From Arthrobacter sp. UM1 (GTDB taxonomy: Bacteria > Actinomycetota > Actinomycetes > Actinomycetales > Micrococcaceae), in the NCBI RefSeq assembly GCF_020483305.1, contig NZ_JACWAB010000001.1, forward strand, positions 62,001 to 126,000: 64,000 nt of DNA. The letters run 5' to 3'. A program made the translations under genes and the position numbers. Within the stretch, counting starts at the first letter, position 1, and every line of letters begins with the position of its first letter. The notes under the pieces are model-generated. The model was not told where the DNA came from. It worked only from the letters and a program-made list of their open reading frames with translations, and did not search any database. Shown one piece after another: positions 36,588 to 43,590 of the stretch.

Positions 36588-36624
36588 CCCCGGGCAGGGC
36601 AACGCCCTGAGAACGGTGGGGTCA
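36585..36624. terminator. Inverted repeat holding both convergent stop codons
   Basis: Outer arms TGACCCC (36585-36591) and GGGGTCA (36618-36624) each begin with the stop codon of the gene that ends there. An inner hairpin is CAGGGC-AAC-GCCCTG (36595-36609). There is no U-tract. It likely acts as a bidirectional terminator or anti-read-through fold. Confidence 0.5.
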
Positions 36625-37443
36625 GCTGTGGTCAGCCGCAGCCACCCGCTCCAGTGCAGACGTGAGCCCGCGGCGGACCTCCCCGCTCGGCAGGAGGCTC
36701 ACGTGATCGCGTCCCTCCACGGTGAGGGAGACGGGCGTCCAGGCGGGCGTCGGTGCCGCCGTGCCAGACACGGCAGCGGCATCCACGAGCACCTGCGGGT
36801 CGAGGGCCAAGGAATCGTCAGACCCGCGGGCGGCGAACACGAGGCCAGCGGGTGCGCCGTGCTTCTCGAGCACCTGGCGAACCTCGAACGGGGTCGCTCC
36901 TGCGGCGCGGATCAGCGGCGCGAGACGCTCGGCAGCGCCCTGGGCCTCGAGCAGCCCCTCGAGAAAGCGCGTCTCCGGAGTGTTCTCGCCGCGGGCGAGA
37001 GCAGCCAGGTGATCCTCCGCCGGGACTCCGGCAGCTGAGACAGACCTCACCAGGCTCGGCTCGGCGAGGGCCAGCGTCCACGCCACAGTGGAACCGAGCG
37101 AGTAGCCCACGAGGTCAACGGGCCCGCCGTGGTGCTCCGCCGTGCGTCGCAGCTGCTGCAGCGCCCACTCGTCCAACTCCGCACGGGACTCGGACGCGGG
37201 GAGAGCGCTCGAGCCGTGGCCGGGCAGATCCGGTGCTGTGGGCGTCCAGCCGGCGCGTTCAAGCGAGCGGATCCACCCGGGCCGGCCGAAGGTCTGCTCC
37301 GCGTCTGAGGCGAAGCCGTGGAAGAGGAGAGCACGGCCCCGAGTCTGGTCTGAGCCGCCCACGCCACGAGCTCCAGCTGAGCCGCCCATGCCACGCGCTC
37401 CAGCCGAGCCGCTCATGCCACGAGCTCCAGCCGCCCCGCTCAT
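36622..37443 (-). CDS. Alpha/beta hydrolase with repeated N-terminus
   Basis: 273 residues from the ATG at 37443, which overlaps the IclR stop (ATGA). The first 30 residues are a tandem repeat of a 9-residue unit (M/V-S/G-G-S/A-AGARG). In-frame ATGs at 37416 and 37389 inside the repeat are alternative starts. The hydrolase proper begins near residue 36: LLFHGFAS oxyanion region, PDLPGHG, nucleophile GYSLGS with Ser115, an Asp in RGSDDS, and base His in GRDHVSLLPSGEV. It resembles small lactone or ester hydrolases. Co-transcribed with the IclR regulator, it is probably a catabolic step for the compound moved by the divergent symporter. Confidence 0.8.
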   Translation of the reverse strand: MSGAAGARGMSGSAGARGMGGSAGARGVGGSDQTRGRALLFHGFASDAEQTFGRPGWIRSLERAGWTPTAPDLPGHGSSALPASESRAELDEWALQQLRRTAEHHGGPVDLVGYSLGSTVAWTLALAEPSLVRSVSAAGVPAEDHLAALARGENTPETRFLEGLLEAQGAAERLAPLIRAAGATPFEVRQVLEKHGAPAGLVFAARGSDDSLALDPQVLVDAAAVSGTAAPTPAWTPVSLTVEGRDHVSLLPSGEVRRGLTSALERVAAADHS

Positions 37444-37446
37444 GCG
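37352..37446 (-). repeat. 27-bp tandem repeat, about 3.5 copies, in a coding start
   Basis: Units lie at 37352-37378, 37379-37405 and 37406-37432, plus a partial unit at 37433-37446, differing at only a few bases. The copies read in frame in the hydrolase gene, so gain or loss of a copy changes length by 9 residues without a frameshift. Three of the units carry an ATG. Confidence 0.85.
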
Positions 37447-38165
37447 TCGGCCTCCAGCCGACGGGCGACGTCCCGAGCGGCGTCCCGGACGGCCGACGCA
37501 TGCTGTTCCGTGAGGTCCCGGGTGGACAGGTAGACGGTGGCGATCGCGGCCGGAAGCCCCTGGCCCAGCGGGATCGGCGCGGCACAGGAGCCGAGGCCGT
37601 CGATCACCTCGTCGTGGGAGACGGCGTAGCCGCGGCGGCGCGCCTCGTCCGCCTCGGGGCGGTAGGGCGTCTCCGGCCGGAACTCGGCCCATTCGGCGGG
37701 GGAGAGGCCGGACATGATCGCGAGACCGGGTGCGCCGTGGTCCAGTCCGTGGCGGGTGCCCGGGCGCTGGGCCAGTGCCGCTCCGGCGGCCACCGCCTCG
37801 ACGGACTCCAGGGTGATGCACTCGGATCCTTCTGCGACCACGAGGAACGCCGTCGCCCCCGTCTCCGCGCTGAGGCGGTGCAGAGCCGGCACGGCGAAGC
37901 GCCGCAGCCCGGACTCCACGCCCTGCGCCAGTGCGGCCAGCCCGTGGTCGGCCCGATACCGGCCTTCCTCGTCGGCCCGGACCAGCCCGTGGGCCTCCAG
38001 GGTCTTGACCATGCGGTAGACCACCGAGCGGTGGACGCCGAGGCGCGAGACCACCTCGTTGACGGTGGCGCCGCGCGGGGAAAGCGCGATGACCTCGAGG
38101 ACGCGCAGGCCGCGGCTCAGGGTCTGCGAGGGCACAGAGGGGGTCTCGTCGGCTGGGGTGTGCAC
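37440..38165 (-). CDS. IclR family transcriptional regulator
   Basis: 241 residues from the GTG at 38165 with GAGAGGATCGGAG upstream. An N-terminal winged HTH (about 15-75; LSRGLRVLEVIALSPRGATVNEVVSRLGVHRSVVYRMVKTLEAHG) is followed by a GAF-like effector domain (about 80-240; PALHRLSAETGATAFLVVAEGSECITLESV, HDEVIDGLGSCAAPIPL). IclR proteins sense small aromatic or organic acids and usually control adjacent catabolic genes. The gene is divergent from the MHS symporter and overlaps the hydrolase, making a classic local regulator. Confidence 0.92.
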   Translation of the reverse strand: MHTPADETPSVPSQTLSRGLRVLEVIALSPRGATVNEVVSRLGVHRSVVYRMVKTLEAHGLVRADEEGRYRADHGLAALAQGVESGLRRFAVPALHRLSAETGATAFLVVAEGSECITLESVEAVAAGAALAQRPGTRHGLDHGAPGLAIMSGLSPAEWAEFRPETPYRPEADEARRRGYAVSHDEVIDGLGSCAAPIPLGQGLPAAIATVYLSTRDLTEQHASAVRDAARDVARRLEADA

Positions 38166-38430: not shown

Positions 38431-39783
38431 ATGACCTCCACCACCGCACCCGTCTCCCGCGAAGAGCGCAAGGTCCTCGCGGGAACGCTCGTCGGCACCA
38501 CGATCGAGTGGTACGACTTCTTCATCTTCGCTCAGCTCTCCGCAACACTCCTCGCGGCGCTCTTCCTCAAGCCGCTCGAGGCGAGCAACCCGGCCCTCGC
38601 GGGCATCCTGGCGTTCGCACTGGTGGGCATCAGCTTCCTGTTCCGCCCGCTCGGCGCCATCATCGCCGGCCGTGTCGGCGACCGGATCGGCCGCAAGCCC
38701 ACGCTCGTCGCCACCCTCATCCTCATGGGCGTGGCGACGGCGGGCATCGGCTTCCTGCCCACCTACGCCCAGGCCGGGGTGATCGCTCCCGTGCTGCTCA
38801 TCCTCCTGCGGATCGTCCAGGGCTTCTCCGCCGGCGGCGAGTGGGGTGGCGCGGCGCTCATGGCCGTGGAGCACGCCCCCACGGGCAAGCGCGGCCTGTT
38901 CGGCGCCTACCCGCAGATCGGCGTCCCGCTCGGCATGATCCTCGCCACGGGCCTTCTCTTCGGCCTGCGCACCTCGATCTCCCCGGCGGACTTCGCGAGC
39001 TGGGGCTGGAGGATCCCGTTCGTTCTCTCGATCCTGCTCATCCTCGTGGGATACCTCATCCGCCGCCGTGTGGAGGATTCCCCGGTCTTCAAGGAGCTCT
39101 CCGAGCGCCGGGCCGAGTCCAGCGCCCCGCTCACCGAGCTGCTCAAGCACCACTTCAAGCCGGTGGCGCAGTCCGCTCTCATCTTCATCGCCAACAACGC
39201 CGCCGGGTACCTCGTCATCGCGTACTTCATCAGCTACGCCACCAAGGTCCTCAAGATGGAGCCCTCGCCCGTCATCGGGATGACGGCGCTCGCCTCGTTC
39301 TCCTGGCTCGTCTTCACGCTCGTGGGCGGCAGCCTCTCGGACCGCCTGGGCCGTGTGAGGACGTTCCTCCTCGGCTACGCCATCGTGGCGGTCTGGATCA
39401 TCCCGTGCTTCCTCCTCGTGGAGACGAAGAGCCTAGGGCTCTACCTCCTGGCCCTCGTGGTGCTCTCCGCGGGACTCGGCCTCTCCTACGGCCCGCAGTC
39501 GGCGATGTACGCGGAGATGTTCCCCGCGCGCATCCGCTACTCGGGCATCTCGATCGGCTACGCCATCGGCGCGATCTTCGGCGGCGCTTTCGCCCCGATG
39601 ATCTCCGAGGCGCTGTTCGTCGGCACGCACTCGTCCGTGTCCATCGGCGTCTACATCATCGTCCTCTGCGTCATCTCCGTGCTCGGCCTCCTCTGGGCCG
39701 GCGAGACGAAGGGGCGGGATCTCTCGATCGACGCCGCCGATCACCACTACGTCAAGGGAGCCTCGGGGGAGCAGGTCCGCTGA
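38431..39783 (+). CDS. MHS-family metabolite:H+ symporter
   Basis: 450 residues from the ATG at 38431 with GGGAAGG upstream. Twelve membrane helices. MFS motifs are GDRIGRKPTLV (loop 2-3) and the second-half copy LSDRLGRVRTF. The N-terminal GTTIEWYDFFIFA and the block RIVQGFSAGGEWGGAALMAVEHAP are signatures of the metabolite:H+ symporter (MHS) group, which takes up shikimate, alpha-ketoglutarate, citrate, proline betaine or aromatic acids. The substrate is unknown here. The paired IclR regulator hints at an aromatic or dicarboxylic acid. Confidence 0.9.
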   Translation: MTSTTAPVSREERKVLAGTLVGTTIEWYDFFIFAQLSATLLAALFLKPLEASNPALAGILAFALVGISFLFRPLGAIIAGRVGDRIGRKPTLVATLILMGVATAGIGFLPTYAQAGVIAPVLLILLRIVQGFSAGGEWGGAALMAVEHAPTGKRGLFGAYPQIGVPLGMILATGLLFGLRTSISPADFASWGWRIPFVLSILLILVGYLIRRRVEDSPVFKELSERRAESSAPLTELLKHHFKPVAQSALIFIANNAAGYLVIAYFISYATKVLKMEPSPVIGMTALASFSWLVFTLVGGSLSDRLGRVRTFLLGYAIVAVWIIPCFLLVETKSLGLYLLALVVLSAGLGLSYGPQSAMYAEMFPARIRYSGISIGYAIGAIFGGAFAPMISEALFVGTHSSVSIGVYIIVLCVISVLGLLWAGETKGRDLSIDAADHHYVKGASGEQVR

Positions 39784-39849: not shown

Positions 39850-39884
39850 AAGGGCCCCGCCGGATCGGTTCCGGCGGGGCCCTT
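39850..39884. terminator. Terminator after MHS symporter
   Basis: A 14-bp perfect stem (AAGGGCCCCGCCGG and complement) with a 7-base loop, then TCGCG. It lies between convergent genes and can serve both. Confidence 0.75.
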
Positions 39885-39901: not shown

Positions 39902-40633
39902 TCAGCTCTCCAGCAGTGCGAGCGCCGCGTCCTTGAACTTCCGCGAGGACACGGCGTTCATGTGGTTCCGCCCCGGGATGACGAGCTCCTCGGCGCCCGG
40001 CACGAGCTCGACGAGCGCGTGGGCGTCCTGCGCGATCTCGTCCTTCTCGCCGTACGCGATGAGCGTCGGCATCCTGGGCGGGTTGGCCCCGGCGAAAGGG
40101 CGGGCCGTGATCGCGTCGAGCAGCGCGGCGAGGCGCGGGTTCTCGGCGGGGTTGAGGCCCGCGGCCGCGAGGACCTGGTGCCGCTCGTCGTGCGCAGGGT
40201 CGGTGCGCGGCAGGCCGCCGATGACCACGCGGTCGACGACGTCGGCCGCCTCCCACGCCAGCCGTCCGCCGAAGGAGTAGCCGATGACGGCGCGCCGCCA
40301 GGGCTCGTCCGCCGAGGCGGCGCGGGGCGCGGAGTGCTCTTCGATGAGCTCGCGCAGCGCGTCCCCGATCCAGGGCGCCGTGGCCGTGACGGCGTCGGGA
40401 TCGGCGGCGGCCTCCTCGGCGTCGGGATGCCCCGGGAGCTCGACGAGCCACACGCGTGCCGGCGCGTCGCCGCTGTTGACGAAGGGCTCGAGGGCGCGGA
40501 GCCAGCCGCTGCCGTCGAAGGTCCCCCGCCCGGTGGACCCGAGGCCGTGGACGAGCCAGACGTCCCGCCCGGGGTCGCCCTCCGGCGAGGGGCGCCGGCC
40601 GGCGACGAGGCGGGCTGCTGCGGTGAGCGCCAT
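39902..40633 (-). CDS. Alpha/beta hydrolase in the oxoacid dehydrogenase operon, AcoC C-domain-like
   Basis: 243 residues from the ATG at 40633, 2 bases after the lipoyl-protein stop. Oxyanion LVHGLGSTG (27-35), ELPGHPDA, nucleophile GYSFGG with Ser120, acid Asp in GEKDEI and base His in GRNHMN make a full triad. Position and fold match the C-terminal hydrolase domain of AcoC, the E2 of acetoin cleavage, where the lipoyl and hydrolase domains are one chain. Here they are two chains from neighbouring genes. If it works with the lipoyl protein, it would release the acyl group to CoA or water. Its true reaction is unproven. Confidence 0.75.
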   Translation of the reverse strand: MALTAAARLVAGRRPSPEGDPGRDVWLVHGLGSTGRGTFDGSGWLRALEPFVNSGDAPARVWLVELPGHPDAEEAAADPDAVTATAPWIGDALRELIEEHSAPRAASADEPWRRAVIGYSFGGRLAWEAADVVDRVVIGGLPRTDPAHDERHQVLAAAGLNPAENPRLAALLDAITARPFAGANPPRMPTLIAYGEKDEIAQDAHALVELVPGAEELVIPGRNHMNAVSSRKFKDAALALLES

Positions 40634-40635
40634 CG

Positions 40636-40968
40636 TCAGTCCTCGTCCAGGTTCGCGTTGAGGCGCACGCGGCGCTTCTTCTTCTTCTTCTCCTCAGGGA
40701 CGACGCCGATGATCCCGGCCTGCTCGTCCGCGACGGTGAAGGCGATGAGCTCCTCGCCGACCTTGATGACGTCCCCGTCCTCGCCGCCGAGGCGCGCGAC
40801 GACGCCGGCCTGCGGGGAGGGCAGCTCAAGGGCGGACTTCGTCGTCTCGACCTCGACGATCGGCTGGTTGCGCTCGACCTGGTCGCCCACGGAGACGAGC
40901 CATTCGAGGATCGTCGCCTCGATGAGGCCTTCGCCCAGGTCGGGGAGGGGGAAAGAGAGTTCAGCCAC
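40636..40968 (-). CDS. Stand-alone lipoyl domain protein (E2-like, no catalytic domain)
   Basis: 110 residues from the GTG at 40968, which overlaps the E1 beta stop by 8 bases (GTGGCTGA). A single lipoyl domain (1-80) reads FPLPDLGEGLIEATILEWLV with the lipoylated Lys44 in VETTKSALELPSP. It then ends in a Lys-rich tail (PEEKKKKKRRVRLNANLDED). The peripheral-subunit-binding domain and the roughly 230-residue acyltransferase of a normal E2 are missing, and no such sequence follows in any frame. The (CTT)n run behind the Lys tract is trinucleotide, so slippage would not shift the frame. It probably carries acyl groups made by the E1 encoded upstream. Confidence 0.85.
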   Translation of the reverse strand: MAELSFPLPDLGEGLIEATILEWLVSVGDQVERNQPIVEVETTKSALELPSPQAGVVARLGGEDGDVIKVGEELIAFTVADEQAGIIGVVPEEKKKKKRRVRLNANLDED

Positions 40969-41950
40969 GGCGGTACTCCAATGTTCGCTGGATTCCAAAG
41001 AGGATGCGGTCGATGTTGGGCAGGTACTCCTCCTCGAGGTCGCCTGCCGGGTAGGGGACGTCGAACCCTGTGACGCGCTCGACGGGCGCCTTGAGGGTGT
41101 CGAAGCAGGACTGCGAGGCGAGCGCCGCGATCTCCGCGCCGAGGCCCGCGGTCTGCGGGGCCTCGTGCACGACGACGGCGCGCCGCGTCTTGCCGACCGA
41201 GCGGGCGATCGCGTCCGCGTCGATGGGCTTGAGCCACCGGAGGTCGAGCACCTCGGCCTCGATCCCGTCCTCGGCGGCGAGCTCCGCCACCTCGAGGCAG
41301 GTGGAGACCTGCGCGCCCCAGGAGATGAGCGTGACGTGCCGTCCCTCGCGGGCCACGCGGGCGCCGGTCAGGTCGCCGGGGTTCTCGAGGTCCACCTCGC
41401 CCTTGTTCCAGTAGCGGGACTTGGGCTCCATGAAGACCACGGGGTCCTTGGCGTTCGCGCCGGTCACGGCCTTGAGAAGGTGGTAGGCCTCGTGGGGCGT
41501 CGAGGGGGAGACCACCTTGAGGCCCGGCGTGTGCGCGAAGAGCGCCTCGAGGGACTCGGAGTGCATCTCCGGCGCGTTGATCCCGCCGAAGCTCGGGATG
41601 CGGAGCGTTACCGGCATGGGGAACGCTCCGCGGGAGCGGTAGTTCATGCGGGCGAGCTGAGTGACGATCTGGTTGACGGCGGGGTAGCTGAAGCCGTCGA
41701 ACTGGATCTCGGGAATGGGGTGCCAGCCGGCCATCGCGAGGCCCACGGAGAGTCCCACGATCCCGGACTCGGCGAGCGGGGTGTCCCGCACTCGCTCCTC
41801 GCCGAACTCGGCTGCGAGCCCGTCGGTCACGCGGAAGACGCCGCCGAGCACGCCGACGTCCTCGCCGAGGACGATCGACCTCGGGTCCTCCGCCATCGTC
41901 TCGTGGAGCGCGCGGTTGACGGCCTTCTGGAGGGAGAGGGTCTCAGTCAC
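40961..41950 (-). CDS. 2-oxoacid dehydrogenase E1 component, beta subunit
   Basis: 329 residues from the GTG at 41950, overlapping E1 alpha by 8 bases (GTGACTGA). Conserved blocks are VLGEDVGVLGGVFRVTDGL, DTPLAESGIVGLSVGLAMAG, EIQFDGFSYPAVNQI, HSESLEALFAHTPGLKVVSPSTP and DPVVFMEPKS, which build half of the thiamine diphosphate site. This is the branched-chain/pyruvate E1 beta type. The substrate cannot be told from sequence alone (branched-chain, pyruvate or acetoin). Confidence 0.93.
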   Translation of the reverse strand: MTETLSLQKAVNRALHETMAEDPRSIVLGEDVGVLGGVFRVTDGLAAEFGEERVRDTPLAESGIVGLSVGLAMAGWHPIPEIQFDGFSYPAVNQIVTQLARMNYRSRGAFPMPVTLRIPSFGGINAPEMHSESLEALFAHTPGLKVVSPSTPHEAYHLLKAVTGANAKDPVVFMEPKSRYWNKGEVDLENPGDLTGARVAREGRHVTLISWGAQVSTCLEVAELAAEDGIEAEVLDLRWLKPIDADAIARSVGKTRRAVVVHEAPQTAGLGAEIAALASQSCFDTLKAPVERVTGFDVPYPAGDLEEEYLPNIDRILFGIQRTLEYRRG

Positions 41951-42959
41951 GGTCGGTCTCCTCCTGCCATGCGGCCTTCTGGGCCGTGAGGGTCTCGGTG
42001 GGCTCCTGGAAGACGAAGTCGAAGATCTCGTCCCCGGGGCGGTGGGGCGCGTTGACGGTCTTCTCCCGCAGGTCCTCGACCCACGCGCGGGCCTCCTCGG
42101 CGAGCCGGTCCGCCTCGGCCTGCTCCACGCCGGCGGCGAGCGCCTGCTGCGTCGCGACGTCCACGGGGTCCACCGCGCCCTGCTCGTACTCCTGCTGGAG
42201 CGAGCGGTACCGTCCGGGATCGTCCGAGGTCGAGTGCGGTCCGCGCCGGTAGGTCATGACCTCGACGACGACGGGCCGCTGCGACTCACGCGCCTCGTCG
42301 AGCGCCGCCCGGGAGGCGGTGATGACGGCCTCGACGTCGTTCCCGTCCGCCCGGTATGCGCTCATCCCGTAGCCGGCCGCGCGCTCGCTCACGAACCCGC
42401 CGGCCACCTGCTTCGCCGTCGGCGTCGAGATGGCCCAGCCGTTGTTCTGGACGTAGAAGACCACGGGCGCGCCCATCGTGGCCGCGAAGTTCATGGCCTC
42501 GTGGACGTCGCCCTGGGAGGACGCGCCGTCCCCGAGGAAGGCGACGGCCACGGAGTCCTCGCCGTTCATCCGCTGGCCGAGCGCCCAGCCGACGGCGTGG
42601 AGGCAGGAGCCGGCGACGACGGCCTGGAAGGGGGCCAGCCGAGTCCTCCCGGAGTCGTAGAGGCCGCCGTGCCAGAGCCCCTGGTGGGTGGCCATGTAGG
42701 CGGGCATGTCGACGCCGAGGGCGAGCGCCACCCCAGCCTCGCGGTAGGTGGGGAACGCCCGGTCCTGCGGGCCCATGGACCAGCCGATGCCGATCTGGGC
42801 GGCCTCCTGGCCGAGACACGGGGCGTAGCCGGGGATGAGCCCCTGCCGCTGCCACCGGATGGCGCCCTCCTCGAGGGCCCGGGACTTCAGGATGAGGCCC
42901 AGCACCTCGAGCGCGCTCTCGCGGTCGAGGTGCTGTGTGCTCGGAGTCACAACTGTCAT
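41943..42959 (-). CDS. 2-oxoacid dehydrogenase E1 component, alpha subunit
   Basis: 338 residues from the ATG at 42959; the open frame runs further up but has no good start there. The thiamine diphosphate motif is GDGASSQG (143-150) through QNN (171-173). The family segment YAPCLGQEAAQIGIG and the phosphorylation-loop-like YRRGPHSTSDDPGRYR are typical of branched-chain E1 alpha. With E1 beta it decarboxylates a 2-oxoacid and transfers the acyl unit to lipoate. It begins the four-gene operon and is divergent from an Lrp/AsnC gene. No E3 (dihydrolipoamide dehydrogenase) is nearby. Confidence 0.92.
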   Translation of the reverse strand: MTVVTPSTQHLDRESALEVLGLILKSRALEEGAIRWQRQGLIPGYAPCLGQEAAQIGIGWSMGPQDRAFPTYREAGVALALGVDMPAYMATHQGLWHGGLYDSGRTRLAPFQAVVAGSCLHAVGWALGQRMNGEDSVAVAFLGDGASSQGDVHEAMNFAATMGAPVVFYVQNNGWAISTPTAKQVAGGFVSERAAGYGMSAYRADGNDVEAVITASRAALDEARESQRPVVVEVMTYRRGPHSTSDDPGRYRSLQQEYEQGAVDPVDVATQQALAAGVEQAEADRLAEEARAWVEDLREKTVNAPHRPGDEIFDFVFQEPTETLTAQKAAWQEETDRD

Positions 42960-42966
42960 GGAGGTC

Positions 42967-42972
42967 ACCGTA
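42967..42972 (-). promoter_or_regulatory. -10 element of E1 alpha, leaderless
   Basis: TACGGT on the minus strand, 7 bases before the ATG at 42959. Confidence 0.55.
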
Positions 42973-43101: not shown

Positions 43102-43590
43102 ATGGCACGCACTGTGGACCACCTCGACGACCGTCTCATCCGCCTCTTCACCGAGAACCCCCGCCAGAGCGTCCTCGAGGCCTCCCGGCTCCTCAAGGTC
43201 GCCCGGGGAACGGTCCAGGCACGCCTGGACCGGCTCTCCCGCAACGGCGTCATCGCCGGCTGGGGGCCGCGCATCGACCCTGCGGCGCTCGGCTACGGGG
43301 TCAAGGCCTTCGTCTCCCTCACCATCAACCAGAAGCGGGGGCACAGCGCCGTGGCCCGCGAGCTCCACGCCGTCCCCGAGATCCTCGAGCTGCACACGGT
43401 GACGGGGGACGCGGACCTGCTCGCCGTCGTCGTCGCCCGGAGCAACCCGGACCTCCAGCGCGTCCTGGACCGGCTGGCGGAGTCGGGGGACGTGCAGCGC
43501 GCCTCGAGCGTCATCGTGCTCGAGTCGCTCTTCGAGCAGCGGGCCGAGGGGCTCATCGGGACGGGCGGCGCCGAGGCCGCCGAATCGTGA
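43102..43590 (+). CDS. Lrp/AsnC family transcriptional regulator
   Basis: 162 residues. N-terminal HTH (about 7-55; LDDRLIRLFTENPRQSVLEASRLLKVARGTVQARLDRLSRNGVI) and C-terminal RAM effector domain (about 68-145; AFVSLTINQKRGHS, LHTVTGDADLLAVVVAR). Members form octamers or dimers and bind amino acids. The divergent placement beside the 2-oxoacid dehydrogenase operon mirrors bkdR of other bacteria, where branched-chain amino acids induce bkd genes. That role is inferred. Confidence 0.9.
   Translation: MARTVDHLDDRLIRLFTENPRQSVLEASRLLKVARGTVQARLDRLSRNGVIAGWGPRIDPAALGYGVKAFVSLTINQKRGHSAVARELHAVPEILELHTVTGDADLLAVVVARSNPDLQRVLDRLAESGDVQRASSVIVLESLFEQRAEGLIGTGGAEAAES

Follow-up and report, generated by a model that had tools for sequence, protein, structure and literature searches.

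A tight operon in the genome of Arthrobacter sp. UM1 encodes the two E1 chains of a 2-oxoacid dehydrogenase, a stand-alone lipoyl carrier protein (lip) and an alpha/beta hydrolase (hyd), and across related genomes this split architecture is linked to genes for the degradation of 4-hydroxyphenylacetate (hpa genes). We put at about one half the probability that the operon is an arylpyruvate dehydrogenase with a dismantled E2, in which hyd cleaves the acyl–lipoyl bond and a shared E3 completes the cycle. The substrate predicted as most likely is 4-hydroxyphenylpyruvate, and hydrolysis is the most likely mode of product release.

Organization of the operon

The window, meaning the whole stretch of 64,000 nucleotides that was analysed, carries the operon on its minus strand in the order E1-alpha, E1-beta, lip, hyd. 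The features of the region, in positions of the window, are the following.

37440..38165, minus strand: IclR-type regulator (Pfam HTH_IclR and IclR_C), found beside mfs or hpaC in relatives
38431..39783, plus strand: MFS metabolite:H+ symporter, converging on the operon (TIGR00883, 377 bits, under the cut-off of 443)
39850..39884, minus strand: strong hairpin (-34.5 kcal/mol, z -4.75) between hyd and the converging transporter gene
39902..40633, minus strand: hyd, alpha/beta hydrolase of 243 residues with an ATG start (Pfam Abhydrolase_6, 4.9e-09, and Abhydrolase_1)
40636..40968, minus strand: lip, stand-alone lipoyl carrier protein of 110 residues with a GTG start (Biotin_lipoyl, 1.3e-18)
40639..40716, minus strand: conserved C-terminal tail of lip, residues 85-110, GIIGVVP...RRVRL...DED, a candidate docking peptide
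40837..40839, minus strand: codon of the putative lipoylation lysine Lys44 (ETTKS), invariant in 32 aligned sequences
40961..41950, minus strand: E1-beta (Pfam Transket_pyr and Transketolase_C), overlapping E1-alpha by 8 bases
41943..42968, minus strand: E1-alpha of a 2-oxoacid dehydrogenase, starting at GTG 42968 or ATG 42959 (Pfam E1_dh, 1.4e-66)
43102..43590, plus strand: Lrp/AsnC-type regulator, divergent from the operon (Pfam AsnC_trans_reg and HTH_AsnC-type)

The initial annotation of this DNA had described an overlap of the two E1 genes and a hydrolase with a full triad beginning two bases after lip, and both observations are borne out: the overlap is 8 bases long, hyd starts 2 bases past the end of the lip gene and its triad is Ser120, Asp198 and His224. 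The GTG start of lip overlaps the stop of E1-beta, again by 8 bases. The MFS symporter adjoins hpaB, hpaC and iclR in loci L134, L135, L139 and L142.

The E1 belongs to the alpha/beta heterotetramer type, with E1_dh on one chain and Transket_pyr and Transketolase_C on the other, and alignments to solved E1 structures of the pyruvate and branched-chain types (1w85_A, 1um9_B) cover most of each chain. Closest to E1-alpha is 1w85, a pyruvate E1 alpha, followed by 1dtw, a branched-chain E1 alpha; closest to E1-beta are 1um9_B and 3duf_B. Such likeness would not by itself decide against acetoin as the substrate.

Conservation of the four genes

A search with lip found the full-length protein in 65 of 197 Micrococcaceae genomes, at E values from 1.8e-66 to 2.8e-42, after which comes a gap until 2.2e-24, where mostly long-frame matches begin. 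At E <= 1e-25, lip occurs in 13 of 297 genomes of the order, 12 of these in the family and one outside it (G698), and among 396 genomes of the phylum nothing beyond the window's own match scored better than 8.5e-27, a hit in a frame of 447 residues. The lipoyl–hydrolase pair that the initial annotation had singled out is present in 65 of 197 Micrococcaceae genomes and stands behind its own E1 in every genome that has it (66 of 66, with G698). In all 66 genomes (the 65 Micrococcaceae and G698) E1-alpha, E1-beta, lip and hyd follow one another in the same order and on the same strand, an arrangement far beyond chance. The same order holds in 80 of 80 named loci, these 80 having been kept out of 289 relatives scanned; they come from Arthrobacter, Sinomonas, Pseudarthrobacter, Paenarthrobacter, Zhihengliuella, unclassified Micrococcaceae, seven Cryobacterium and one record labelled Acidobacteria. 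The genome and locus sets overlap, and their counts are not additive. The title of the last record, an Acidobacteria MAG (L223), is probably a mislabel or the result of mis-binning.

In a quick tree, the E1-beta chains of split operons form a clade of their own (SH-aLRT 100), apart from 31 E1-beta rows of loci with longer lipoyl frames; the tree used 18 split rows chosen from the 66, and all 18 fall in the clade.

The lipoyl carrier protein

Biotin_lipoyl is the sole Pfam domain of lip (120-residue frame, E <= 0.001), and a peripheral subunit-binding domain, sought by Pfam at the same threshold, was not found; the tail is without predicted fold. In the predicted structure the strands of the lipoyl domain occupy residues 1-80, and the tail, with pLDDT of about 40-48, does not fold on its own. 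Pfam and the alignment confirm the earlier description of a 110-residue protein with a single lipoyl domain and Lys44 and with neither a subunit-binding nor an acyltransferase domain; Lys44 would be the residue that is lipoylated. The tail had been called Lys-rich. A long Lys run is indeed present in the window, but it is peculiar to this sequence, and a different motif is conserved: the usual form of the tail in the 66 genomes is AGIVGTVP...RRVRL...DED, and residues R99, R100, V101, R102 and L103 are invariant in 32 aligned sequences. A tail that is conserved and modelled as unfolded is what a docking peptide could be expected to look like, and docking is the role suggested for it.

In none of the 66 genomes is lip shorter than 108 or longer than 110 residues. 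That lip might be the pseudogene of a truncated E2 was considered and rejected, because its length and tail are kept in all of them. The lipoyl domain is 60% identical over 77 residues to that of the E2 encoded on contig 11 of the same genome, and lip also matches the AcoC model NF011457 at 53.1 bits, over model positions 8-81.

The alpha/beta hydrolase

The triad of hyd is invariant in 77 of 77 aligned relatives, 66 of them linked to lip and 11 without it. The structure model is good (pLDDT 93.4) and the fold is a generic one: all 1000 chains compared gave Z >= 8, the top Z was 19.4, and the fold lists contain only generic alpha/beta hydrolases with near-tied scores, indicating no function. 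YbfF (3bf8, Z 17.8) and 7c4d (Z 17.7) sit among these many near-tied enzymes.

Profile models are similarly undecided, the MenH and PcaD models being about as close to the hydrolases as AcoC is. NF011457 matches 30 of 31 hydrolases (best E 5.2e-15), and the next NCBIfam models match one fewer; the MenH model matches 29 of 31 with a better best E of 8e-17. Against NF011457 the hyd of the window scores 20.8 bits, the cut-off being 307, a full-length value that split halves cannot easily reach. These matches, together with that of lip to positions 8-81 and the description of AcoC in the model as an acetyltransferase subunit, raise the possibility of a two-chain AcoC acting on the same substrate class, with hyd as an acyltransferase that loads CoA with the acyl group carried on the lipoyl arm. 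We regard this as unlikely, if the most serious of the alternatives. The score of the window's hyd is far under the cut-off, the MenH model reaches the better best E, and the hydroxylase family HpaB-1 is named for the free acid. A two-chain AcoC that makes acyl-CoA would call for an extra thioesterase ahead of the hpa pathway. A fused lipoyl–hydrolase relative, sought with NF011457, was found over the cut-off in 0 of the 296 class genomes sampled; 43 of the 296 have matches under the cut-off at E <= 1e-40, and those listed cover the hydrolase part only. This absence is weak evidence, because the model matched 2 of 14 control genomes, neither of them over the cut-off.

The hyd of the window and that of L168 (G043) are without some 20-25 residues of the cap region, near residues 145-155, which the other 29 aligned hydrolases have. 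A second alpha/beta hydrolase is encoded beside IclR at 36622-37439 on the minus strand and outscores hyd, with 48.7 bits for AcoC and 39.4 bits for MenH. SGAAGARGM-like units are imperfectly repeated at its start, and it has relatives in G043 and G013, the latter a genome without a full-length match to lip.

The partnership of hyd and lip can also be judged from loci in which it is broken. In 11 of 29 fetched non-self relative loci there is no E1 or lip beside the hydrolase, and full-length lip is absent from all 11 genomes concerned; where these loci were read, the hydrolases share the same neighbourhood. A hydrolase tree of 66 linked and 11 unlinked sequences and one outgroup, which carries several flagged long branches, shows six changes of label, at least two of them forced by well-supported branches. 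The unlinked hydrolase of G134, for instance, groups tightly with those of lip-bearing relatives, and its locus keeps the permease, hydrolase and hpa genes without E1 and lip. Since hydrolases without E1 and lip are interspersed in this way, hyd either has a further partner or substrate or is capable of having one. Conversely, lip without hyd was found in 0 of 66 genomes and 0 of 80 named loci. The dependency therefore looks one-sided, hyd occurring without lip and lip never being seen without hyd, which fits a thioesterase that can also serve another acyl donor and fits an independent hydrolase of the pathway as well. In five lip-less loci that were read, no clear candidate for a replacement of E1 and lip was seen. 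Loci L049, L050, L051, L052, L053 and L076 have the permease and the hydrolase in the same place, lack E1-alpha, E1-beta and lip there, and provide natural comparison strains.

E2 cores and E3 elsewhere in the genome

The genome from which the window comes (2.39 Mb in 17 contigs, 99.2% complete) contains four 2-oxoacid_dh matches, all outside the window. Two belong to operons of the form E1-alpha/E1-beta/E2 (contigs 1 and 11), a third is an E2 that has two lipoyl domains and follows a lipoamide dehydrogenase, and the fourth is in a frame of 1308 residues that also holds an E1_dh domain. A dihydrolipoyl dehydrogenase is found over its cut-off elsewhere in the genome, so that E3 is available in trans; full E2s are present but unlinked. 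The initial annotation had reported neither an E3 nor a classic E2 core here; the window indeed has no E2 core, and both kinds of gene exist elsewhere in the genome.

As a control, 20 classic E1–E2 loci were taken from 20 lip-bearing genomes and read for up to 8 kb on each side. An E2 core is present in 19 of these operons, the one exception ending at a contig end, and in 0 of the 80 split loci within the same 8 kb. A full E2 elsewhere, co-regulated with and required by this E1, had been named beforehand as a counter-example; it was sought by linkage, and none of the 80 loci has an E2 core within 8 kb.

The full E2s elsewhere do leave room for another arrangement, in which lip would be an N-terminal piece of E2 working in trans with the E2 core of the genome's own branched-chain-type complex to give 4-hydroxyphenylacetyl-CoA, and hyd would act on its own in the 4-hydroxyphenylacetate pathway, as an acyl-CoA thioesterase or an esterase. 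The 60% identity of lip to the contig-11 lipoyl domain agrees with this, as do the 11 of 29 fetched loci that have hyd without lip in what, where read, is the same neighbourhood. The arrangement is nonetheless quite doubtful: a remnant in decay would not be expected to hold a constant length and tail, as lip does in all 66 genomes, lip was not found without hyd, and the split E1-beta chains form their own clade.

The 4-hydroxyphenylacetate neighbourhood

Genes for 4-hydroxyphenylacetate degradation lie within 8 kb in 45 of the 80 split loci, against 0 of the 20 classic controls, and the hydrolase too is found in 0 of the 20 controls. Around the operon, in varying subsets, are genes for an APC amino-acid permease, HpaG, GntR, HpaE, HpaD, HpaH, HpaI, MFS, HpaB, HpaC and IclR, and an lrp match is present in 79 of the 80 named loci. 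At least one hpa gene occurs in 40 of the 66 fetched genome stretches, which are of unequal length (HpaG in 33, HpaD in 22, HpaB in 8). Family calls over the cut-off were obtained for HpaD and HpaE in the window's genome and for HpaB-1 in a relative. The HpaG-, HpaH-, HpaI- and HpaC-like calls are under their cut-offs, and of the several amino-acid permease models that match the permease, none does so above cut-off. HpaB-1 is the hydroxylase family of these clusters, and it is after the free acid 4-hydroxyphenylacetate that it is named.

No hpa gene is near the operon in the window itself, nor within 8 kb in 35 of the 80 named loci. The window keeps the Lrp, MFS and IclR genes of the neighbourhood, and HpaG-GntR-HpaE-HpaD-HpaH-HpaI-like genes are on another contig of the genome. 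HpaB gave no match in this genome, in a search that included no HpaB-positive control genome. On contig 10 (L166: 4749-6317), a flavoprotein gene resembling MerA and lipoamide dehydrogenase, under all cut-offs, adjoins the hpaG-E-D-H-I-like cluster; it could encode a second E3-like enzyme.

It is this neighbourhood that makes 4-hydroxyphenylpyruvate, which is transaminated tyrosine, the likely substrate rather than acetoin. The initial annotation had offered a two-chain AcoC, as known from acetoin dehydrogenases, as the first of two options, and this option is only partly supported: the resemblance of the hydrolases to the AcoC model (30 of 31) is real but no stronger than that to MenH. The better MenH match, a score of 20.8 bits where the cut-off is 307, and the hpa neighbourhood all count against the assignment. 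A true acetoin dehydrogenase in two chains would have the AcoC-like layout of lipoyl domain and alpha/beta hydrolase, but its neighbours here are hpa genes and an amino-acid permease, and no acetoin-specific E1 match appears in the Pfam, NCBIfam and PDB listings, which may not include an acetoin E1. We have set it aside as highly improbable, mainly on the neighbourhood.

The same machinery might serve a branched-chain or another 2-oxoacid, the hpa genes being mere neighbours. The closest solved relatives of the E1 are pyruvate and branched-chain enzymes, an Lrp-type regulator also flanks the classic contig-11 operon of the genome (L069), and the 35 of 80 loci without a nearby hpa gene point the same way. 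The contrast between 45 of 80 split loci and 0 of 20 classic E1–E2 operons of lip-bearing genomes makes such a coincidence improbable, as does the fact that those 20 genomes already own a classic E1–E2 operon.

Co-occurrence across whole genomes is uninformative, because HpaD is found in 180 of 197 genomes: at E <= 1e-60 it is present in 61 of 65 genomes with lip and in 119 of 132 without, and is therefore not enriched with lip. Since HpaD is about as common without lip, other routes to 4-hydroxyphenylacetate probably exist, or the hpa genes serve an external substrate. The lip-bearing genomes missed at this threshold are G076, G104, G150 and G175; HpaD matches are present in the fetched stretches of G104 and G175, so the misses stem in part from the threshold or from broken contigs. 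The HpaD gene of L059 (G143) has one TGA inside the match and may be a pseudogene or contain a sequencing error.

Proposed mechanism

In the preferred reading, an arylpyruvate dehydrogenase with hydrolytic release, E1-alpha/beta would decarboxylate the 2-oxoacid with thiamine diphosphate and then reductively acylate the lipoyl group on Lys44. Water, with hyd as the catalyst, would cleave the acyl-S-lipoyl thioester to give 4-hydroxyphenylacetate as the free acid, with which the hpa pathway begins, and the shared E3, a lipoamide dehydrogenase encoded elsewhere, would reoxidize the carrier with NAD+. With hydrolytic release, neither CoA nor a subunit-binding domain nor an acyltransferase core would be needed, which would explain their absence. 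We infer lipoylation itself, the substrate, hydrolysis in place of CoA transfer, the use of a shared E3 and docking by the tail from genomic context. The second option of the initial annotation, a dehydrogenase in which the hydrolase takes over acyl release, fits best with the conserved pair behind its own E1 (66 of 66) and with the E1-beta clade; the chemistry that it supposes is still a prediction.

In its fullest form, held a little less firmly and hence tentatively, the proposal is of a CoA-independent 2-oxoacid dehydrogenase composed of E1, a free lipoyl carrier and a dedicated acyl-lipoyl hydrolase, without a multimeric E2 core, which would produce free 4-hydroxyphenylacetate and NADH and fill the vacant slot for 4-hydroxyphenylpyruvate oxidation in Arthrobacter.

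Relevance to tyrosine catabolism

The conversion of 4-hydroxyphenylpyruvate to 4-hydroxyphenylacetate in Gram-positive bacteria was reportedly described by Sparnins and Chapman in 1976 and by Blakley in 1977. In its genome paper, strain Re117 is said to use tyrosine, and its HPP-oxidase gene is given as 'not located' (PMC2991359). Too little was known of the route through 4-hydroxyphenylpyruvate oxidase for GapMind, a pathway-annotation effort of 2022, to include it in tyrosine degradation (PMC9007349). Both tyrosine and 4-hydroxyphenylacetate, but not phenylacetate, support growth of Arthrobacter sp. Rue61a, which among sequenced strains is closest to A. aurescens TC-1 (PMC3534580). The record of strain TC1 (L243) contains the split operon with mfs and iclR and has no hpa gene within 8 kb; a record of Arthrobacter citreus DSM 20133 (L199) contains the operon too. 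Among the open-licence papers that the literature searches listed, no title or opening of an abstract names an E1/lipoyl/hydrolase operon in 4-hydroxyphenylacetate degradation.

The split operon is a concrete, conserved and testable candidate for the missing gene of this step. If free-acid release is correct, neither CoA nor an E2 core is indispensable to a 2-oxoacid dehydrogenase, and hydrolysis of the acyl-lipoyl bond would be a main reaction and not a repair. At 110 residues and paired with its own E1, the carrier would moreover offer a simple, modular way of turning 2-oxoacids into aryl acids.

Comparison with known systems

The nearest known layout is that of AcoC (NF011457/PRK14875), the lipoyl and alpha/beta hydrolase halves of which are matched here weakly to moderately; an E1 alpha/beta pair serves both systems, the pair for AcoC being AcoA/AcoB. 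AcoC, however, is one chain, whereas the split operon encodes the two parts separately in all 66 genomes and has a 4-hydroxyphenylacetate neighbourhood.

The E1–E2 operons of branched-chain and pyruvate dehydrogenases, BkdABC and PdhABC, have the same order of E1-alpha and E1-beta, and the classic contig-11 operon of this genome has in addition an Lrp-type regulator alongside and an E2 with a lipoyl domain 60% identical to lip. The split operon differs from them in having neither a subunit-binding domain nor an acyltransferase core, and a hydrolase instead. Compared with a classical E2, lip has the lipoyl domain with its lysine, and a core is absent both in the gene and beside it.

A known activity of like outcome is that of 4-hydroxyphenylpyruvate oxidase (EC 1.2.3.13) of tyrosine-degrading Arthrobacter. 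The product of the operon would be the same, 4-hydroxyphenylacetate, in a similar organism and pathway (PMC2991359, PMC3534580), but the known enzyme is named an oxidase and its gene was reported as not located.

For the chemistry of release there is a precedent in human ABHD11, which as a lipoyl deglutarylase of the alpha/beta serine hydrolase kind breaks an acyl-S-lipoyl thioester and for which no specificity was seen against glutaryl-CoA (PMC12643935). By analogy, hyd, with its alpha/beta fold and Ser-Asp-His triad, may be suited to the role proposed here. ABHD11 is mitochondrial and strips glutaryl adducts from an E2, whereas hyd would carry out the normal product-releasing step.
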